From: Hadesarchaea archaeon
Lineage (GTDB): Archaea; Hadarchaeota; Hadarchaeia; Hadarchaeales; Hadarchaeaceae
Direction of reading: 5' to 3'
DNA: 5,548 nucleotides
Assembly (NCBI GenBank): GCA_030616505.1
Contig: JAUWXD010000034.1
Coordinates: 1-5,548 of the forward strand
This document shows, one piece after another, positions 155 to 5,530 of this stretch (the first letter of the stretch is position 1; every line of letters begins with the position of its first letter). The translations under genes were made by a program, and so were the position numbers. The notes beneath the pieces were generated by a model. That model saw only the letters and a program-made list of their open reading frames with translations. It ran no database searches and was not told where the DNA came from.

Positions 155-406
155 ATGGAGAAGTTATGGGACGTAGTAACAGCATACTCGACAGGTGGAC
201 GCGACAGTATTGTAGTCTGCATCCCGCACAAACTCCGGAGAGACCGGCCAATCAAAGTCGGGCAGCAGTTCGCTGTCAAAACCGACGATGCAGGGCGGTT
301 AATTTTTGAACCTTTGGATAAAAAGCAGGAAATCGGCCCCAACGTGCGAGGGAGAGGCCGCCCCCGGAGACCAGCCCAAAGCCACACGAAGCCCAAGGAG
401 GTCTAA
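155..406 (+). CDS. AbrB/SpoVT-type DNA-binding protein with AT-hook tail
   Basis: An 83-aa protein. Residues 4-54 have the AbrB/MazE/SpoVT swapped-hairpin pattern: a short strand (WDVV), then GRDSIVVCIPHKLRR, then IKVGQQFAVKTDD and GRLIFEPL. The I-P-x-x-L-R and K-x-G-x-x-F-x-V elements are typical of this fold, which acts as a dimeric DNA binder and is often autoregulatory. The tail is basic, and RGRGRPRRP at 65-73 contains the G-R-P core of an AT-hook, a minor-groove binding motif. The start is set by AGGAG 8 nt upstream. No toxin gene follows, so an antitoxin role is not supported. The phased repeats just upstream are a natural binding site, making this a candidate repressor or initiation accessory factor of the replication operon (inference). 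Confidence 0.75.
   Translation: MEKLWDVVTAYSTGGRDSIVVCIPHKLRRDRPIKVGQQFAVKTDDAGRLIFEPLDKKQEIGPNVRGRGRPRRPAQSHTKPKEV
397..401 (+). promoter_or_regulatory. Shine-Dalgarno site supporting a GTG start at 410
   Basis: GGAGG lies inside the last codons of the AbrB-like gene with 8 nt to GTG 410, an ideal spacing. It is the main support for calling the 58-aa gene. Because AAG-GAG-GTC also encodes the C-terminal K-E-V of the upstream protein, chance cannot be excluded. Confidence 0.5.
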
Positions 407-409
407 ATA

Positions 410-586
410 GTGTCTATTTTTCACATCATAAAAACTTTCGCTTTCGGGTCTTCCGCCACCTACTGCTTTCGCCAGATTTTTGGATACCGAGAGCGACCGG
501 GCCATGCTTTCTATCGGAATCCACCAGCCGATTCAAAATTGTTCATGATTCACGCTCGTTCGTTGAACGAGGGGAGGCAGTTTTGA
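410..586 (+). CDS. Small 58-aa protein of unknown function (GTG start)
   Basis: The frame opens with GTG 3 nt after the stop of the AbrB-like gene, behind a GGAGG at the right distance. It closes with TGA at 584-586, whose final A is the first base of the next gene's ATG (TGATG overlap). Such junctions are typical of translationally coupled operon genes, and this frame otherwise fills the gap between its neighbours exactly. The predicted protein starts MSIFHIIKTFAF, is rich in aromatics (F, Y) and Arg, and ends NEGRQF. It has one Cys, no clear transmembrane segment and no domain I recognise. The N-terminal 12 residues are hydrophobic, but too short for a firm signal or membrane call. The alternative is untranslated spacer that happens to stay open. 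Confidence 0.45.
   Translation: MSIFHIIKTFAFGSSATYCFRQIFGYRERPGHAFYRNPPADSKLFMIHARSLNEGRQF
555..571 (+). promoter_or_regulatory. Perfect 7-bp hairpin just before the SSB-like gene's SD
   Basis: CTCGTTC (555-561) and GAACGAG (565-571) are perfect complements with a 3-nt GTT loop. The stem ends 1 nt before the GGAGG (573-577) of the ssDNA-binding protein gene. In mRNA it could affect ribosome access or be opened by ribosomes translating the 58-aa frame. There is no U-tract, so it is not an intrinsic terminator. The structure is visible; the function is inferred. Confidence 0.45.
573..577 (+). promoter_or_regulatory. Shine-Dalgarno site selecting ATG 586
   Basis: GGAGG, within the longer GGGGAGG, lies 8 nt before ATG 586 but only 5 nt before the in-frame TTG at 583. 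This favours the ATG as the true start. Confidence 0.7.
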
Positions 587-1233
587 TGGATGAAACGGAA
601 ATCGAAAAAAACTTGGAAGAACTCGCAAAGGCGTATGACAAGAAGCTCGAGGTCGCGAAGGCGATCTATGACGATTGTAGAAAGCAAGGTGGAGCGACGG
701 CTGAGGACGCGTTTAAAATAACTAAAGAAAAATTTGAGCAGGAATTCGGATTTCGCGAGGAAACGCCGATTCCTGCCGAAACACCGGAGCTGAAACCAGC
801 ACCCGCCACTAAACCAATAAAAACACGCCAACTTGTATTGCGCGTCAAAGAAAGCAAGGAACTTGTTCATTGGGATGAGGGGGCATGGAACACCGTCGTT
901 AGCGGCATCACCTCCGACGAAATGCCGTTGGGGAGGATAGATTCGAACGGAGCGCCAATAATCAACGAAGTGTTTAGGATTTCATTCCAAAGAAACGACG
1001 GGCAAGCGATCGATGGAATAACAAGCCGCATTTTCTCGACGAAAAGCAAATTGTATTCTTGGTATTCTGCCATTCTCGGAAGGGAACCAGCGGTCGGCGA
1101 AGACATTGACCTCAACGAGCTAGTCGGGCGACGCTGCAGAATTATTGTGAAAAACAAAGCAACAAAAAGGGGCGGTGTTGCGAGCCAAGTTACCGATGTG
1201 CTCAGCGCGGAGGGCAACGTCCAAAATGCGTGA
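586..1233 (+). CDS. Probable ssDNA-binding (OB-fold-like) replication protein
   Basis: A 215-aa protein using the ATG at 586. Residues 1-55 are charged and helical, probably a coiled coil or helical hairpin. Residues 61-80 form a Pro/Lys linker. Residues 81-208 resemble the ssDNA-binding-like proteins encoded beside phage and plasmid primases: beta strands VFRISFQ and RIF, then SKLYSWYSAILG (154-165), DLNELVGRRCRIIVKN (175-190) and a final QVTDVL (201-206). The order 'KSKLY-helix, D-L-x-x-L-V/I-G-R-x-C-x-I-x-V, V-T-D-V' is my basis for the family call, made from memory without a profile search. It overlaps the preceding frame by 1 nt and sits upstream of the primase-helicase, fitting a role in coating ssDNA at the element's fork. 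The N-terminal helical region is an extra that might mediate oligomerisation or partner binding. Confidence 0.55.
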   Translation: MDETEIEKNLEELAKAYDKKLEVAKAIYDDCRKQGGATAEDAFKITKEKFEQEFGFREETPIPAETPELKPAPATKPIKTRQLVLRVKESKELVHWDEGAWNTVVSGITSDEMPLGRIDSNGAPIINEVFRISFQRNDGQAIDGITSRIFSTKSKLYSWYSAILGREPAVGEDIDLNELVGRRCRIIVKNKATKRGGVASQVTDVLSAEGNVQNA

Positions 1234-1354: not shown

Positions 1355-4300
1355 ATGACCGAGACTATTCCATCCCAGTTGGATTTTCCCGAGACGATAC
1401 ACCTGCTGAAGAAGTTAATCGTCAACCGCGACAATGCTTTCGCTGAGCAACAACCCGACGGCCAATACTATTGCAAAAAGGAGGAGCTTTCAAACTTGGT
1501 GCTGGAGGATCATCTTAAGGGAACTCGGACCATCGGGGTTTACTTAATCAATCCCGAGAAGCAGGATGTCAAAACAATTGGATTCGACATAGACGGCGAC
1601 CCGAGAGACTTGGGGCCCACGAAAGCCGCAAGCAACGTGATCCATCAGGCGTTGCTGGATTCGGGCGTTCCGCAAGATTCGATTTTAGTGGAGTTCACGG
1701 GCTTGAAAGGTTTCCGAGTGACGGTATTTTTAGATCCGCCCATAAGCGCGGCGGTAGTGCGGAATTTCGCGTTAAAGGCAACGGGGGATATCAAAATCCC
1801 GGACGGCGCGAGCCTTGAGATTTTTCCAAAACAGGATCGCGTCGAGAAGGGACACTTCGGCAACCTCGTCAAACTTTTTTTCGCGCTCCACCGGAAGAGC
1901 GGGAAGCGTGCTCATCTCGTTCATCCAATTTCTTTCGATCCTTGGCCCTGGGAGGCCTTGAAAGCCATCAAACCGTGGAGGATGCCCCTCGAGCTACGCG
2001 TACACGATACGACCGTACGAAAAGAAATTCCAAAAACCCCGCTATCTGCCGAGGACTATCCGTGCTGGAAAAAGATTTCCGTGGGCGACATCCCGCCGGG
2101 TTCCCGGCACGACGCTGGGTTCGCATACTGCCGACACCTACGTGATAAAGGGCTTAGCTTAGAGGCCACACTTTCTGTAATGGAAAGCTGGTGGGGGAGA
2201 CTTGCCCAGCCCCCGCAAGCCGCAGAGGCTAGACCTTGGGCAAACATTGAAAGTGCGGTAAAGGACGCGTACGAGCAAAAATACGCGGTCGGGTGCAGGA
2301 CGGTCCGCGAACGCTGGCCCGACCTGTGCGATCCCGATTGTTCGATCAGAAAGCGCGAGGAAGCATGTCAGAACTTCCAGAGCGGGAACGTGAAAATCCA
2401 AATTGAGCACGGTATTTGCAGCACGGAATTTAACGATGCGCCGAAGGCACGGCTGATAATCAAGCACGTGAGAAAAAAGTGGCGTTATCAGGTCGCCACG
2501 ATCCGTGAGGACGGCTTTGAGCCGGGGATCGAACACCCGAGCGGGGCCGCACCGTGGGAGGAAAACAGAGTCTTGTGGAAAACATTGACTGGTGAGCTCG
2601 AAAAAGCGGGGGTTGAAAAACCGCGCGAATCTCTCGAAGAAATCGGGAAGACCCTCTCCAAGAACGGGGGGGAAGCACTATTCGAGGAGAAAAAAACTGG
2701 GGGCGAAGACGAGGCGATAACGCCCGGGGCCCGGGAGAAGGCGCTCGATATCCTCAAGCACGGTAACCCAATCGAATATGTCGGTGACACGGTACAATTA
2801 ATGCACAAGGGGGATTACGAGCTGGGACAGTACCTCTGGCTCGGTACCCTGACCCCGGAACTAGGCTCCCGGGAACACGTAATCGCGGTCGGCGCGAGCG
2901 GAGTCGGAAAGAGCGATCTAATTCGAAAGGTATGTCGGTGCGTGCCCCCGAACAAGAGGGTGAAGCTGGACAGCGCGAGCGCAAAATCCCTTTACTACGC
3001 CGTGAAGGCCGGGGTCGACATCAGCGGGGTCGTGTTCAACATAGACGACGTGGACCCGGACGACCCGGAGCAGGTCTCCCTCCTGAAGCTGATGGCGACC
3101 GACGACCCGGAAGAGCTCAGGCACTGGACCCTCACCGACGACCGGGAGTTCACGGAGCTCGTGTGCTCGCGCCGCTTCGTCGTCTTCGCCTCGACGATAG
3201 AGAGCCTGCCTGGCAAGCAGGGGCAGATCCTCCGGAGGTACGAGGTGCTGAATCCGAGCGAGGACGAGAAAGCGCTGAAGGACACACTGGATTACATTAA
3301 AGGCGAAGTCAGGGGGGGCAGAAGTGAAGAGAGTTACCCGCCCGAGTTCGAGGTCGCGCGGGCCATCACCGACGAAATAAAAAATCAAGAGCTCAAGGTC
3401 GCCATTCCGTTTAATTTCGACTTCCCGCAGCAGAGCTTCGAGGCGAAGACCGCCCTGAAAAAGTTCGCGGCCCTGGTGTGGGCGGCCGCTAAGGCACGAT
3501 TCATGCAGCGGATCGTCATCGGTGACACCCTACTTGCACAGCCCGAGGACTTCGACCTCGTGGTCAAGCTCTGGGGAAAGCGTCAGCCGCTCAAGGTGGA
3601 CGAGATCGCGATGCGCGTGCTAGATAATCTAGACGACCAGGAACCCATGGAGAAATACGACCCGGAGGAAAAGCAACGGTACTGGAACCCCGCGCCACGG
3701 ACATCCACCACCCTCTCGCGGCAGCTGGGGGTGCCGCCACGGACGGTCAGGGACAAGCTGGGCCACCTGTACGACATGGGGTTGACCGACCGAAAACAGG
3801 CGGGAGGGAGAGGCAACCCGTACGCCTACTGGTGGGCCGCTGGGGTATCGGAAAAGATAGGAAATTTGGTCAAAAGGGACAAGGATATACGGCAGTTCGT
3901 GGCTCCCCAAAAGATGCTACCTTCTCTGGACCCAAACGGGCTCGTTTCTTCCTTGGACGATTATTACGACCAAAACCAGACAAGCATGAACGAGAGAGAG
4001 AAAGAGAAATGGTCCGAGTACGTGGGGCGGGTTTCACGCTACGCCTCTCTCTCTCTTTCTTCCGTAGGGGAAAATGAACGTAATAATCAACAAAGCAAGG
4101 AAACCACCCCTATTGAACAATCTAAGCAAAAAGAAATTACGCCGTTGCCCGTTGCCGAAGAGAAAAGAATGTTTAAGCCAAAAGAAGCCGAATGCGGTGA
4201 GTTTAGTCCTACTCAAGTCGGAGAACGAGAAGAAGGGGGTGCAAAGCCCGAAACCGGTGGGACGGAGAAGGAAGGGGAACTCTCCCAAGCCGATCTCATG

Positions 4301-4714
4301 GGGCAACTTGGCGAGCTGTACAAAAGAATTGGTGGAGCTGATTTTTCCGTCGAGGGCTTTGTGACGATGGCGCAGGCGAACCTGCGGGGCGAGCGCGAAG
4401 AGCGTTTGCGCGAAGCCGTCCGGCAGATGGCCGACCGCGGTGTGGTGTTTAGGGCAGGCACACCCGAAAAAATCGATAAAGATGACGACGTTTCGAAAAC
4501 GGCGGCGAACGCACCAGCATCCGAATCCAGAGAAGGTGAGTATGTGGGGTTCGAGTTCACCAAGCCTCTCGAGCAAGAGATCTCCTATCCCGACCCCGAA
4601 AATCCTGAAAAGTCCATAACCTTCGGGCCCTTTTCGGGAAAAGAGACCAAGGGGCTCCCAGCCGGGCTCGCCAGGGGGCTCAAGCGTGACGGTTACGGGA
4701 GGATCCTACCATGA
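1355..4714 (+). CDS. Giant AEP primase / AAA+ ATPase (primase-helicase) fusion
   Basis: An 1119-aa replication protein. Residues 40-190 are an AEP primase core of the kind found in plasmid/virus and TOTE-type primases: DHLKGTRTIGVYLI, catalytic FDID (77-80), GFRVTVF (119-125, motif II region), LEIFPKQD (154-161), then FGNLVKL and HRKSGKR. Residues 246-308 look like a PriCT-type helical domain (RHDAGFAYCRHLRDKGLS), followed by a Cys cluster (C314, C325, C329, C338). Residues 505-640 are an AAA+ ATPase with Walker A GASGVGKS (513-520), Walker B VVFNIDD (559-565), a sensor-1-like strand FVVFAST and a candidate Arg finger R627/R628. Residues 775-830 and 976-1036 are two winged helices, separated by a charged disordered linker (about 875-975). 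Residues 1061-1119 resemble a GINS B-domain. The start has only a loose G-rich SD (1343-1348). The protein probably primes and unwinds the element's DNA. Confidence 0.75.
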   Translation: MTETIPSQLDFPETIHLLKKLIVNRDNAFAEQQPDGQYYCKKEELSNLVLEDHLKGTRTIGVYLINPEKQDVKTIGFDIDGDPRDLGPTKAASNVIHQALLDSGVPQDSILVEFTGLKGFRVTVFLDPPISAAVVRNFALKATGDIKIPDGASLEIFPKQDRVEKGHFGNLVKLFFALHRKSGKRAHLVHPISFDPWPWEALKAIKPWRMPLELRVHDTTVRKEIPKTPLSAEDYPCWKKISVGDIPPGSRHDAGFAYCRHLRDKGLSLEATLSVMESWWGRLAQPPQAAEARPWANIESAVKDAYEQKYAVGCRTVRERWPDLCDPDCSIRKREEACQNFQSGNVKIQIEHGICSTEFNDAPKARLIIKHVRKKWRYQVATIREDGFEPGIEHPSGAAPWEENRVLWKTLTGELEKAGVEKPRESLEEIGKTLSKNGGEALFEEKKTGGEDEAITPGAREKALDILKHGNPIEYVGDTVQLMHKGDYELGQYLWLGTLTPELGSREHVIAVGASGVGKSDLIRKVCRCVPPNKRVKLDSASAKSLYYAVKAGVDISGVVFNIDDVDPDDPEQVSLLKLMATDDPEELRHWTLTDDREFTELVCSRRFVVFASTIESLPGKQGQILRRYEVLNPSEDEKALKDTLDYIKGEVRGGRSEESYPPEFEVARAITDEIKNQELKVAIPFNFDFPQQSFEAKTALKKFAALVWAAAKARFMQRIVIGDTLLAQPEDFDLVVKLWGKRQPLKVDEIAMRVLDNLDDQEPMEKYDPEEKQRYWNPAPRTSTTLSRQLGVPPRTVRDKLGHLYDMGLTDRKQAGGRGNPYAYWWAAGVSEKIGNLVKRDKDIRQFVAPQKMLPSLDPNGLVSSLDDYYDQNQTSMNEREKEKWSEYVGRVSRYASLSLSSVGENERNNQQSKETTPIEQSKQKEITPLPVAEEKRMFKPKEAECGEFSPTQVGEREEGGAKPETGGTEKEGELSQADLMGQLGELYKRIGGADFSVEGFVTMAQANLRGEREERLREAVRQMADRGVVFRAGTPEKIDKDDDVSKTAANAPASESREGEYVGFEFTKPLEQEISYPDPENPEKSITFGPFSGKETKGLPAGLARGLKRDGYGRILP
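3992..4055 (+). repeat. GA-rich / CT-rich inverted repeat in the linker coding region
   Basis: GAGAGAGAGA (3992-4001) and TCTCTCTCTC (4046-4055) form a perfect 10-bp inverted repeat around 44 bp. Both arms sit within longer purine (3992-4009) and pyrimidine (4044-4063) runs. In protein the arms encode the charged NEREKEK and the serine-rich SLSLSS of the disordered linker. Simple dinucleotide tracts like this tend to slip during replication, and could form a hairpin or triplex-like structure. I see no separate gene here. Confidence 0.6.
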
Positions 4715-4911
4715 GCACGGCGGACCTGCTGGAACTGGCCTGTTTTTGCGACAGGTGCGGTGTGCGCCTCGACGACGACGTTTGCTCGGCGCCGCCCGGT
4801 TCTCGCTTTAAGCAGCTCTGCAGTGCTTGTGCCGACGCAGAACTTTTCGAGATGCACTACGGTGGGTGGGACGAATACCTCGAAGATTACGGGGAGGGAG
4901 ACGATTGCTAA
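4711..4911 (+). CDS. Small zinc-ribbon-like protein, 66 aa
   Basis: The protein has a CxxC pair at C13/C16 (within CFCDRCG, which adds C11) and a second pair C37-S-A-C40, about 20 residues apart. This is the arrangement of a small zinc ribbon or treble-clef-like knuckle. C25 and the C-terminal C66 are extra. After the zinc site the chain is acidic and aromatic (MHYGGWDEYLEDYGEGDD), more like a protein-interaction tail than a DNA-binding one. The ATG overlaps the primase-helicase stop (ATGA), and GGAGG at 4698-4702 lies 8 nt upstream, so translation is coupled to that gene. A role as a partner of the primase-helicase is suggested only by position; no specific family is recognised. Confidence 0.65.
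   Translation: MSTADLLELACFCDRCGVRLDDDVCSAPPGSRFKQLCSACADAELFEMHYGGWDEYLEDYGEGDDC
4893..4897 (+). promoter_or_regulatory. Shine-Dalgarno site supporting a TTG start at 4905
   Basis: GGAGG, within GGGGAGGGAG, lies inside the end of the zinc-ribbon gene, 7 nt before TTG 4905. The other in-frame candidates lack a comparable site: ATG 4827 sits deep inside the upstream gene, and GTG 4974 has no SD. The TTG is therefore preferred. Confidence 0.6.
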
Positions 4912-5123
4912 CTCGTACCACTAGCGGGAACAGGCAGGGTGGCGCTCGTCGAACTAATCACGCGGTTCCATCTGTGACCAGGAGCAAGCAAATTGACCGC
5001 TGCCTCGATGAATTGCTGTTAACAATCGACGACTTTTTCAGCCACGTTCCCGGTGAGCTCAGGCCCGACCTCCATCGTGCATACTGGGATGTGTGTCGAA
5101 TGCGATTGGGGGTGCGTGAGTAA
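4905..5123 (+). CDS. Small 72-aa helical protein of unknown function (TTG start)
   Basis: The TTG start overlaps the last 7 bases of the zinc-ribbon gene, and the TAA stop shares its last A with the next ATG (TAATG). Residues 1-27 are polar and basic, probably flexible (Thr, Ser, Asn, Gly, Arg). Residues 28-70 look like two or three amphipathic helices: KQIDRCLDELLLTIDDFFSHV, then LRPDLHRAYWDVCRMRL. C33 and C64 are isolated and do not suggest a metal site. I recognise no family. If GTG 4974 were used instead, the protein would be only the 49-residue helical part. Packing between coupled genes supports it being real. Confidence 0.55.
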   Translation: MLTRTTSGNRQGGARRTNHAVPSVTRSKQIDRCLDELLLTIDDFFSHVPGELRPDLHRAYWDVCRMRLGVRE

Positions 5124-5530
5124 TGACCGCCGTTGTAGAGGATAAGCCTGTCGCCCACCAAACCGGGTTTACTAGGGACTTGATAGCGATTTTCGAGGCC
5201 AACTTGAGAAACAGCGAGGAGTGCTTGGGGCCATACCTTGAACACGCCGCGAAGCTCTGGCGTATGAGCGTTAAGTGGGCCAGCAACCGGATACCAAGGC
5301 GGGAGGGGGATCCCAACTTTGACGATGGCGAGCGAGATCGGCGCATATTCGAGCTAACAAAGGAAATTTTCGTTAAACTCATGCCCAGCTTTCCCAAGGT
5401 GGAGGCCTGGACTTGGAGAGCTTTGGAACATTGGAACCCAAGGAATACCACAAAACCGTCAGCGGGGGATTTGGAGCAGAAGGGTGCGGTGAGGGATCGC
5501 GGCGGCCCAACGCCAATCGTTAGAGGGTGA
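5123..5530 (+). CDS. 135-aa mostly helical protein of unknown function
   Basis: It starts at the ATG overlapping the previous stop, with GGGGGTG (5107-5113) 9 nt upstream as a G-rich SD. The first 14 residues look flexible. Residues 15-55 (TRDLIAIFEANL to MSVKWASNRI) and 68-105 (DGERDRRIFELTKEIFVKL to WTWRALEHW) are predicted amphipathic helices, with a charged R-R-E-G-D-P-N loop between. The last 30 residues are Gly/Pro/Arg-rich and probably disordered. There are four Trp residues and no Cys pairs, nucleotide-binding loop or nuclease motif that I can see. Its position suggests an accessory factor of the replication operon. No family is recognised. Confidence 0.65.
   Translation: MTAVVEDKPVAHQTGFTRDLIAIFEANLRNSEECLGPYLEHAAKLWRMSVKWASNRIPRREGDPNFDDGERDRRIFELTKEIFVKLMPSFPKVEAWTWRALEHWNPRNTTKPSAGDLEQKGAVRDRGGPTPIVRG

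Follow-up and report, generated by a model that had tools for sequence, protein, structure and literature searches.

Proteins in which an archaeo-eukaryotic primase (AEP) domain, a PriCT domain, an ATPase and a winged helix follow one another in a single chain have been described from mobile genetic elements, and in some of them the ATPase belongs to the MCM family (Kazlauskas 2018, PMC5862659; here and below, papers are cited for the sections consulted). Archaeal integrated elements encode arCOG07809, a primase-helicase-helix-turn-helix-zinc finger protein with a helicase closely related to fuselloviral proteins (Makarova 2014, PMC4158269), and a helicase-fused type (CAPP-Helicase) is described among the CRISPR-associated primase-polymerases (CAPP; PMC8211822). 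Here we analyse a gene of this kind on contig JAUWXD010000034.1, listed under Hadesarchaea archaeon (GCA_030616505.1); the window is the whole contig of 5,548 bases. An open reading frame (ORF) of 1119 open codons at positions 1355-4714 of the plus strand encodes an AEP/PriL-like/MCM-like primase-helicase of 1119 amino acids (P0001), recognised from the ORF list, library scans and relatives. The product of the gene is most likely the initiator of replication for a mobile element, be it a plasmid, an integrated element or a virus, which is probably archaeal. Fused primase-helicases are already known; the combination of parts in this protein looks new, and its exact domain set was not found described in the sections consulted of the open-licence literature searched.

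Comparison with described systems

The succession AEP, PriCT, P-loop ATPase and winged helix found here is that of the PrimPol-PV1 supergroup (e.g., PrimQH), which serves in the replication of mobile elements (PMC5862659). The window protein differs from PrimPol-PV1/PrimQH in that its AEP is of the CAPP/TOTE type, its ATPase belongs to a cassette seen in archaeal elements, a long linker and a possible second winged helix are added, and motif II of the AEP holds Arg instead of the Gln or His of PrimQH. PolpTN2 of the Thermococcus plasmid pTN2 likewise unites PriS-like, PriCT/PriL-like and winged helix parts in one chain and has lost the motif II His, whereas it is described, in the sections consulted, without an AAA+ domain and carries Gln where the window protein has Arg (PMC5862659). 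The set of primase, fuselloviral-related helicase, helix-turn-helix and zinc finger in arCOG07809 or Mpal_2033-type proteins is also similar; here the AEP differs, the zinc-ribbon-like part of the window lies on a separate overlapping ORF, and the arCOG07809 ATPase has been called a superfamily I helicase or DnaA-like AAA (PMC4158269), whereas that of the window appears MCM-like. A preliminary description of the locus, made from the DNA letters alone, had noted that primase and AAA+ parts fuse in mobile elements, in agreement with the published order (PMC5862659). It had also found no named family to match, a statement overtaken by the three groups of mobile-element proteins just cited (PMC5862659, PMC4158269, PMC8211822).

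The AEP Prim-Pol domain (1382-2002, residues 10-216) is of the CAPP/AEP-TOTE type according to library and fold matches. The five window ORFs were scanned with Pfam, PHROG and NCBIfam, and the primase-helicase matched PF22548 AEP-TOTE above the cut-off and the DNA primase family phrog_5362 at E 1.1e-18; the NCBIfam model for a CRISPR-associated primase-polymerase gave E 2.5e-24, yet under its cut-off, and CAPP was the nearest fold (all fold comparisons are among the matches listed). CAPP_A thus resembles the domain in Prim-Pol fold and sequence, and the MpCAPP C-terminal domain with its conserved cysteines adds a further likeness (PMC8211822). Together with the published helicase-fused type, these matches favour reading the protein as a primase-polymerase of CRISPR adaptation or of a conflict system (CAPP/TOTE), whose helicase would aid DNA synthesis in spacer capture or defence. 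We regard this as very improbable: the window has no visible CRISPR context, with no Cas-like match among its five ORFs in the three libraries (no PADLOC scan was made, and the contig is short) and no CRISPR-like repeat listed. Furthermore, non-CRISPR CAPP relatives in mobile elements are mostly of helicase architecture (PMC8211822), and the helicase part of the window protein recurs near integrase genes in three other neighbourhoods (L211, L212 and L216, see below).

The acidic residues D78 and D80 of motif I and E155, which we take to be motif III, are kept in the window protein and in those three of its four metagenomic relatives retrieved by protein searches (P0002-P0005) that share the AEP (P0002, P0003 and P0005). 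Motif II departs from the CAPP_A/AEP-TOTE pattern. The motif II His is essential in many AEPs, and it was found in 131/132 other aligned rows with a residue at this position, where Arg occurred in 0/132, whereas all four close AEPs (4/4) have Arg at position 121 (1715-1717), a replacement restricted to this clade. To this alignment, 147 unique ORFs contributed 161 rows, of which 29 have a gap at the position; loci L001-L158 had been gathered by AEP patterns, so that residues within those patterns are conserved by construction, and L001-L080 represent at least 80 loci from at least 600 candidate stretches. Such a substitution could have compromised priming by the AEP, in which case the protein would act mainly as an origin-binding MCM-like helicase using the host primase. 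This is quite unlikely, given the retained acidic residues, the 72% identity of the AEP in P0005 beside a different C-terminal half, and the existence of AEPs without the motif II His, namely active PolpTN2 with Gln and DR0530-like proteins with Arg or Lys (PMC5862659). A working primase-helicase of a mobile element remains the preferred reading.

The AEP is followed by a PriL/PriCT-like domain (2042-2359, residues ~230-335) with four conserved cysteines, identified from their conservation and from matches of relatives. In alignment A10, C237 and C314 are Cys in 9/10 rows with a residue, L112 lacking both, and C325 and C329 in 11/11 rows, though the N-terminus of P0004 differs there. PriCT_1 was above cut-off in the relatives L001 and L033, while the PriL family PF04104 was reached by P0002 only, at E 0.0013 and below its cut-off; the PriCT and PriL Fe-S domains have been proposed to be related (PMC5862659). 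The structural model of this domain is middling, with predicted local distance difference test scores (pLDDT) of 59-78 by block over residues 231-330. Alignment and model delimit an alpha/beta insert domain behind it (2372-2683, residues 340-443; block pLDDT 68-85 over 341-440), which is present in P0001 and P0004 and not in P0002 or P0003.

The full-length model is no basis for assessing the AAA+ domain, and statements on its structure rest on a separate AAA+ model. Fold and profile comparison point to an MCM-like AAA+ helicase domain without the full helix-2 insert (2717-3580, residues 455-742). The Walker A motif GASGVGKS (2891-2914, residues 513-520) contains K519, conserved in 26/26 rows of the family. 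The Walker B acids D564 and D565 (3044-3049) are each D in 24/26 rows and E in 2/26, DD being the majority form of the family in place of the usual DE. R628 (3236-3238) is invariant in 26/26 rows and aligns beside the arginine-finger region (SRFD) of MCM. A pre-sensor-1 beta-hairpin is predicted (strands 140-145 and 151-156 ahead of strand 160-166 of the AAA+ model), so that the AAA+ fold, the hairpin, the arginine-finger region, the lid and the winged helix behind it would all have counterparts in archaeal MCM. In contrast to archaeal MCM, the protein has another Walker A and neither the full helix-2 insert nor the MCM N-terminal (OB/Zn) domain, for which no Pfam match was obtained; residues 1-450 are occupied by the AEP, the four-Cys domain and the insert.

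An SF3-type or other AAA+ helicase, whose MCM likeness would go no further than the common AAA+ fold, is an unlikely identity for the ATPase. This alternative draws on the distance between the Walker A K and the Walker B D, which is 45 residues (40-47 in 26/26 family rows) as against 57-59 in 6/6 MCMs from four archaeal genomes, one of them (L224) a shorter and more divergent copy, and on a Pfam MCM score of 14.4 bits versus a cut-off of 23.3. By sequence alone the likeness is indeed weak: with profile A8 the best MCM in the PDB had E 0.097, and ABC and Lon ATPases ranked ahead of MCM, covering the P-loop only. On the other hand, 50/50 PDB fold matches listed for the AAA+ model are MCM chains, which argues for an MCM-type fold of the predicted domain, and the profile-profile comparison with MCM gave 95.0% over 249 columns, lid included. 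Among viral fold matches, fuselloviral SSVK1 A460 ranked third (E 1.0e-13) and an SSV7 protein 16th (E 5.6e-8), ranks 1, 2 and 4 bearing no name; further down, the list includes DUF927, MoxR-like and D5/VirE-like names, which would suit the alternative, and Toprim is found beside DUF927 and MoxR-like among the names of its phage proteins. A precomputed Pfam label, PF27228, is attached to P0001-P0004 and not to P0005. The MCM-like reading suggests that the arCOG07809/fuselloviral type, a poorly described group of archaeal helicases, resembles MCM except for the missing helix-2 insert and, if true, would offer a natural test of the function of this insert.

The first winged helix (3581-3862, residues 743-836) is indicated by helices and strands of the model and by sub-threshold HTH_20 matches in four of the five aligned proteins (P0001-P0004). 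The preliminary description had the architecture largely right as regards AEP, Cys domain, AAA+ and this winged helix.

Distribution of the helicase cassette

Alignment of the relatives showed the AAA+ half to be common to P0002-P0004. P0005, from a contig of 4143 bases, keeps the AEP and the Cys domain (the 72% identity covers 30% of the query); its C-terminal half aligns poorly and has no Pfam match at E<=0.05, and it is probably the product of a module swap. P0004 (717 residues) is related to the AAA+ half, starts with a Cys-rich N-terminus of its own and has no AEP, so that the two halves, primase and helicase, can evidently be encoded separately. Peptide patterns retrieved no close relatives from viral contigs (full protein, A2 and A4) or from genome contigs (A2), and tblastn against plasmids and phages returned matches to the AEP domain only, in 3 and 6 records, respectively.

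An 880-residue protein (L165) from a genome in the phylum of the Bathyarchaeota record L099 has the domain order of the window protein: a different AEP, for which DNA_primase_S and PriCT_1 are only sub-threshold, is followed by four Cys, AAA+ (E 7.7e-23 with profile A5, built without L165), winged helix, linker and, at the C-terminus, a helical part. L211, a longer stretch that includes L165, additionally encodes an ASCH protein and an integrase of archaeal type (E 3.2e-9). Right after the replication gene of L165/L211 lies a 211-residue ORF (L211:3534-4169) without a Pfam match at E<=0.05, which by eye may be a nuclease. Profile comparison also revealed AEP, Cys domain, AAA+ and winged helix in viral contigs of the L001 type (L001, L007, L013, L014 and L033); hhalign gave 99.1% over window residues 15-532 and, for AAA+ and winged helix, 98.5% over 318 columns. 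As this domain order recurs near an integrase gene in archaeal DNA and again in these viral contigs, the architecture does have kin, contrary to the earlier supposition.

The AAA+ and winged helix unit occurs with other primases as well. It is joined to a PF09250 Prim-Pol (E 3.9e-21) in L212, whereas in L216 its partner is an NrS-1-type HBD (E 5.6e-15). In L187, L189 and L196, three of six proteins inspected, the AAA+ domain matches profile A7 at E 5e-36, 4e-35 and 3e-32, the N-terminal parts have no Pfam match, AEP-like motifs can be read by eye (as also in L185), and C-terminal Cys pairs are visible by eye; from their described domain content, we infer that these three belong to arCOG07809. 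The helicase region of L189 found no tblastn match in phages. In L174, a DnaG/Toprim primase is fused to a distant AAA+ relative with a partial match (E 3.1e-8). ORFs were listed for 5/8 neighbourhoods (L211-L214 and L216; L215, L217 and L218 lie outside the integrase reading); integrase candidates picked by eye and confirmed by Pfam were present in L211, L212 and L216, and none was seen by eye in L213 and L214.

In the methanogen phylum of the Methanosarcinales record G003, the A7 profile of AAA+ and winged helix matched 64/294 genomes at E<=0.001, 41/294 of them strongly (E<=1e-15); 20 of the other 23 matches cover only model positions >=261, mostly the winged helix. Profile A5 matched 7/398 genomes at 0.001 in the phylum of G001, only G352 reaching 1e-15.

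Taken together, comparison supports the view that helicase and winged helix form a cassette which mobile elements may recombine with different primases; exchange of replication modules, including primase-helicase fusions, has been reported in spindle-shaped viruses (PMC12934983). A more far-reaching proposal is that an exchangeable, fusellovirus-type MCM-like cassette without helix-2 insert has repeatedly been fused to different primases (CAPP-like, PriS-like, PF09250, NrS-1-like and perhaps DnaG-type), and that in the variant of the window a single chain unites PriS-like, PriL-like and MCM-like parts and would assemble by itself into a hexameric primosome with six Arg-motif-II primases, acting at an iteron origin of its own. 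We offer this tentatively, as somewhat doubtful in its full extent. The window protein as such joins three threads, CAPP-type primase-polymerases, PriL/PriCT domains and MCM-like helicases, and its reading as a primase-helicase, if true, would provide a compact single-subunit model for a primase coupled to an MCM-type ring.

Host, replication mechanism and opposing evidence

An archaeal host is likelier, as archaeal groups are where the helicase cassette turned up (its search did not extend to bacterial genomes). The three best AEP matches among the gathered loci are likewise archaeal records with 33-34% identity (L112, Aenigmatarchaeota; L099, Bathyarchaeota; L087, Methanosarcinales). The archaeal assignment is not proven, since most of the 78 records of AEP relatives are bacterial.

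These bacterial records are one of several points that weigh against an initiator of an archaeal mobile element, along with the motif II Arg and the Walker B DD described above. No integrase was found in the 5,548-base window. The ends of the contig do not overlap at any length from 8 to 399 bases, and its first and last 300 bases share no 12-mers, which neither supports nor excludes circularity. The full-length model has a mean pLDDT of 54 and is poor outside the N-terminal domains. Occurrence of the cassette is patchy: the class of G352 has matches in 12/256 genomes at 0.001 and at E<=1e-15 only in G352 itself, whose protein is in the profile, and the phylum of the Heimdallarchaeota record G004 in 7/227 at 0.001 and 0/227 at 1e-15. 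Finally, the leader repeats described below are absent from 10/10 tested flanks of relatives.

If the protein initiates replication, the winged helix or helices would bind the origin, for which the AT-rich leader with its TGACRT repeats (49-116) is a candidate site. Several copies, likely six, may then form a ring through the predicted MCM-like AAA+ fold, which would open the DNA and translocate along it. On the N-terminal side of each subunit the AEP, aided by the PriL-like four-Cys domain, would prime the exposed strand and might also extend primers, before elongation passes to host polymerases. Speculatively, the long linker could allow the C-terminal helices to contact DNA or some partner, for instance the replisome of the host.

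C-terminal region, leader and neighbouring ORFs

A long linker of low confidence (3863-4279) with one predicted long helix (867-906) in the full-length model separates the first winged helix from a possible second one (4280-4456, residues 976-1034), suggested by three weak helices (pLDDT 39-57) and by alignment with P0002, P0004 and L165. The tail (4457-4711) has no predicted structure and occurs only in the window protein; its 85 residues have no equivalent in P0002-P0005, proteins that the ends of their contigs may have truncated. Of the two winged helices announced in the preliminary description, the first is supported and the second is only possible, while the C-terminal docking domain finds no support and a docking function would be a guess. 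Archaeal RPA contacts primase and PolD via a winged helix (PMC11686378), which for this region is an analogy only. A GINS-B-like tail was also considered and dropped, with no support in Pfam or the PDB.

The leader (41-125, 34% GC) carries four TGACRT repeats on the plus strand at 49, 69, 89 and 111 (49-116) in steps of 20, 20 and 22 bp. The repeat array announced earlier is therefore real, its definition having been fixed only after the array had been seen, and the AT-rich leader is a candidate iteron origin or operator; in SCCmec, to draw an analogy, the Cch2 helicase requires an iteron sequence close to its own gene (PMC7581432). Directly after this leader follows an 83-residue, weakly AbrB/MazE-like DNA-binding ORF (155-406, plus strand; NCBIfam NF047400 at E 0.0021, 17.9 bits versus 50), possibly a regulator.

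Neither another polymerase nor a clamp, a loader or a recognisable single-stranded DNA-binding protein (SSB) was found among the five window ORFs in the library scans. Consequently, the proposed "all-in-one replisome" shrinks to a mobile-element primase-helicase as the best reading of the replication system, and the ORF at 586-1233 (plus strand, 215 residues), once taken for an adjacent SSB-like gene, has no recognisable family. A protein search with it returned only P0007 and P0008, with which it is conserved; P0007, from a marine sediment metagenome, is 88% identical over 81%. The window contains no tRNA and no match to Rfam families, and a 135-residue ORF at 5123-5530 (plus strand) has no Pfam, PHROG or NCBIfam match at E<=1. 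The start of a 66-residue ORF (4711-4911, plus strand) overlaps the primase stop (ATGA). By eye it is zinc-ribbon-like (CxxC...CxxC; DZR at only E 0.18), and its Cys pattern resembles the C-terminal zinc fingers of P0005, L099, L087 and L187-type proteins; it may represent the same zinc-finger module, detached on a separate gene.

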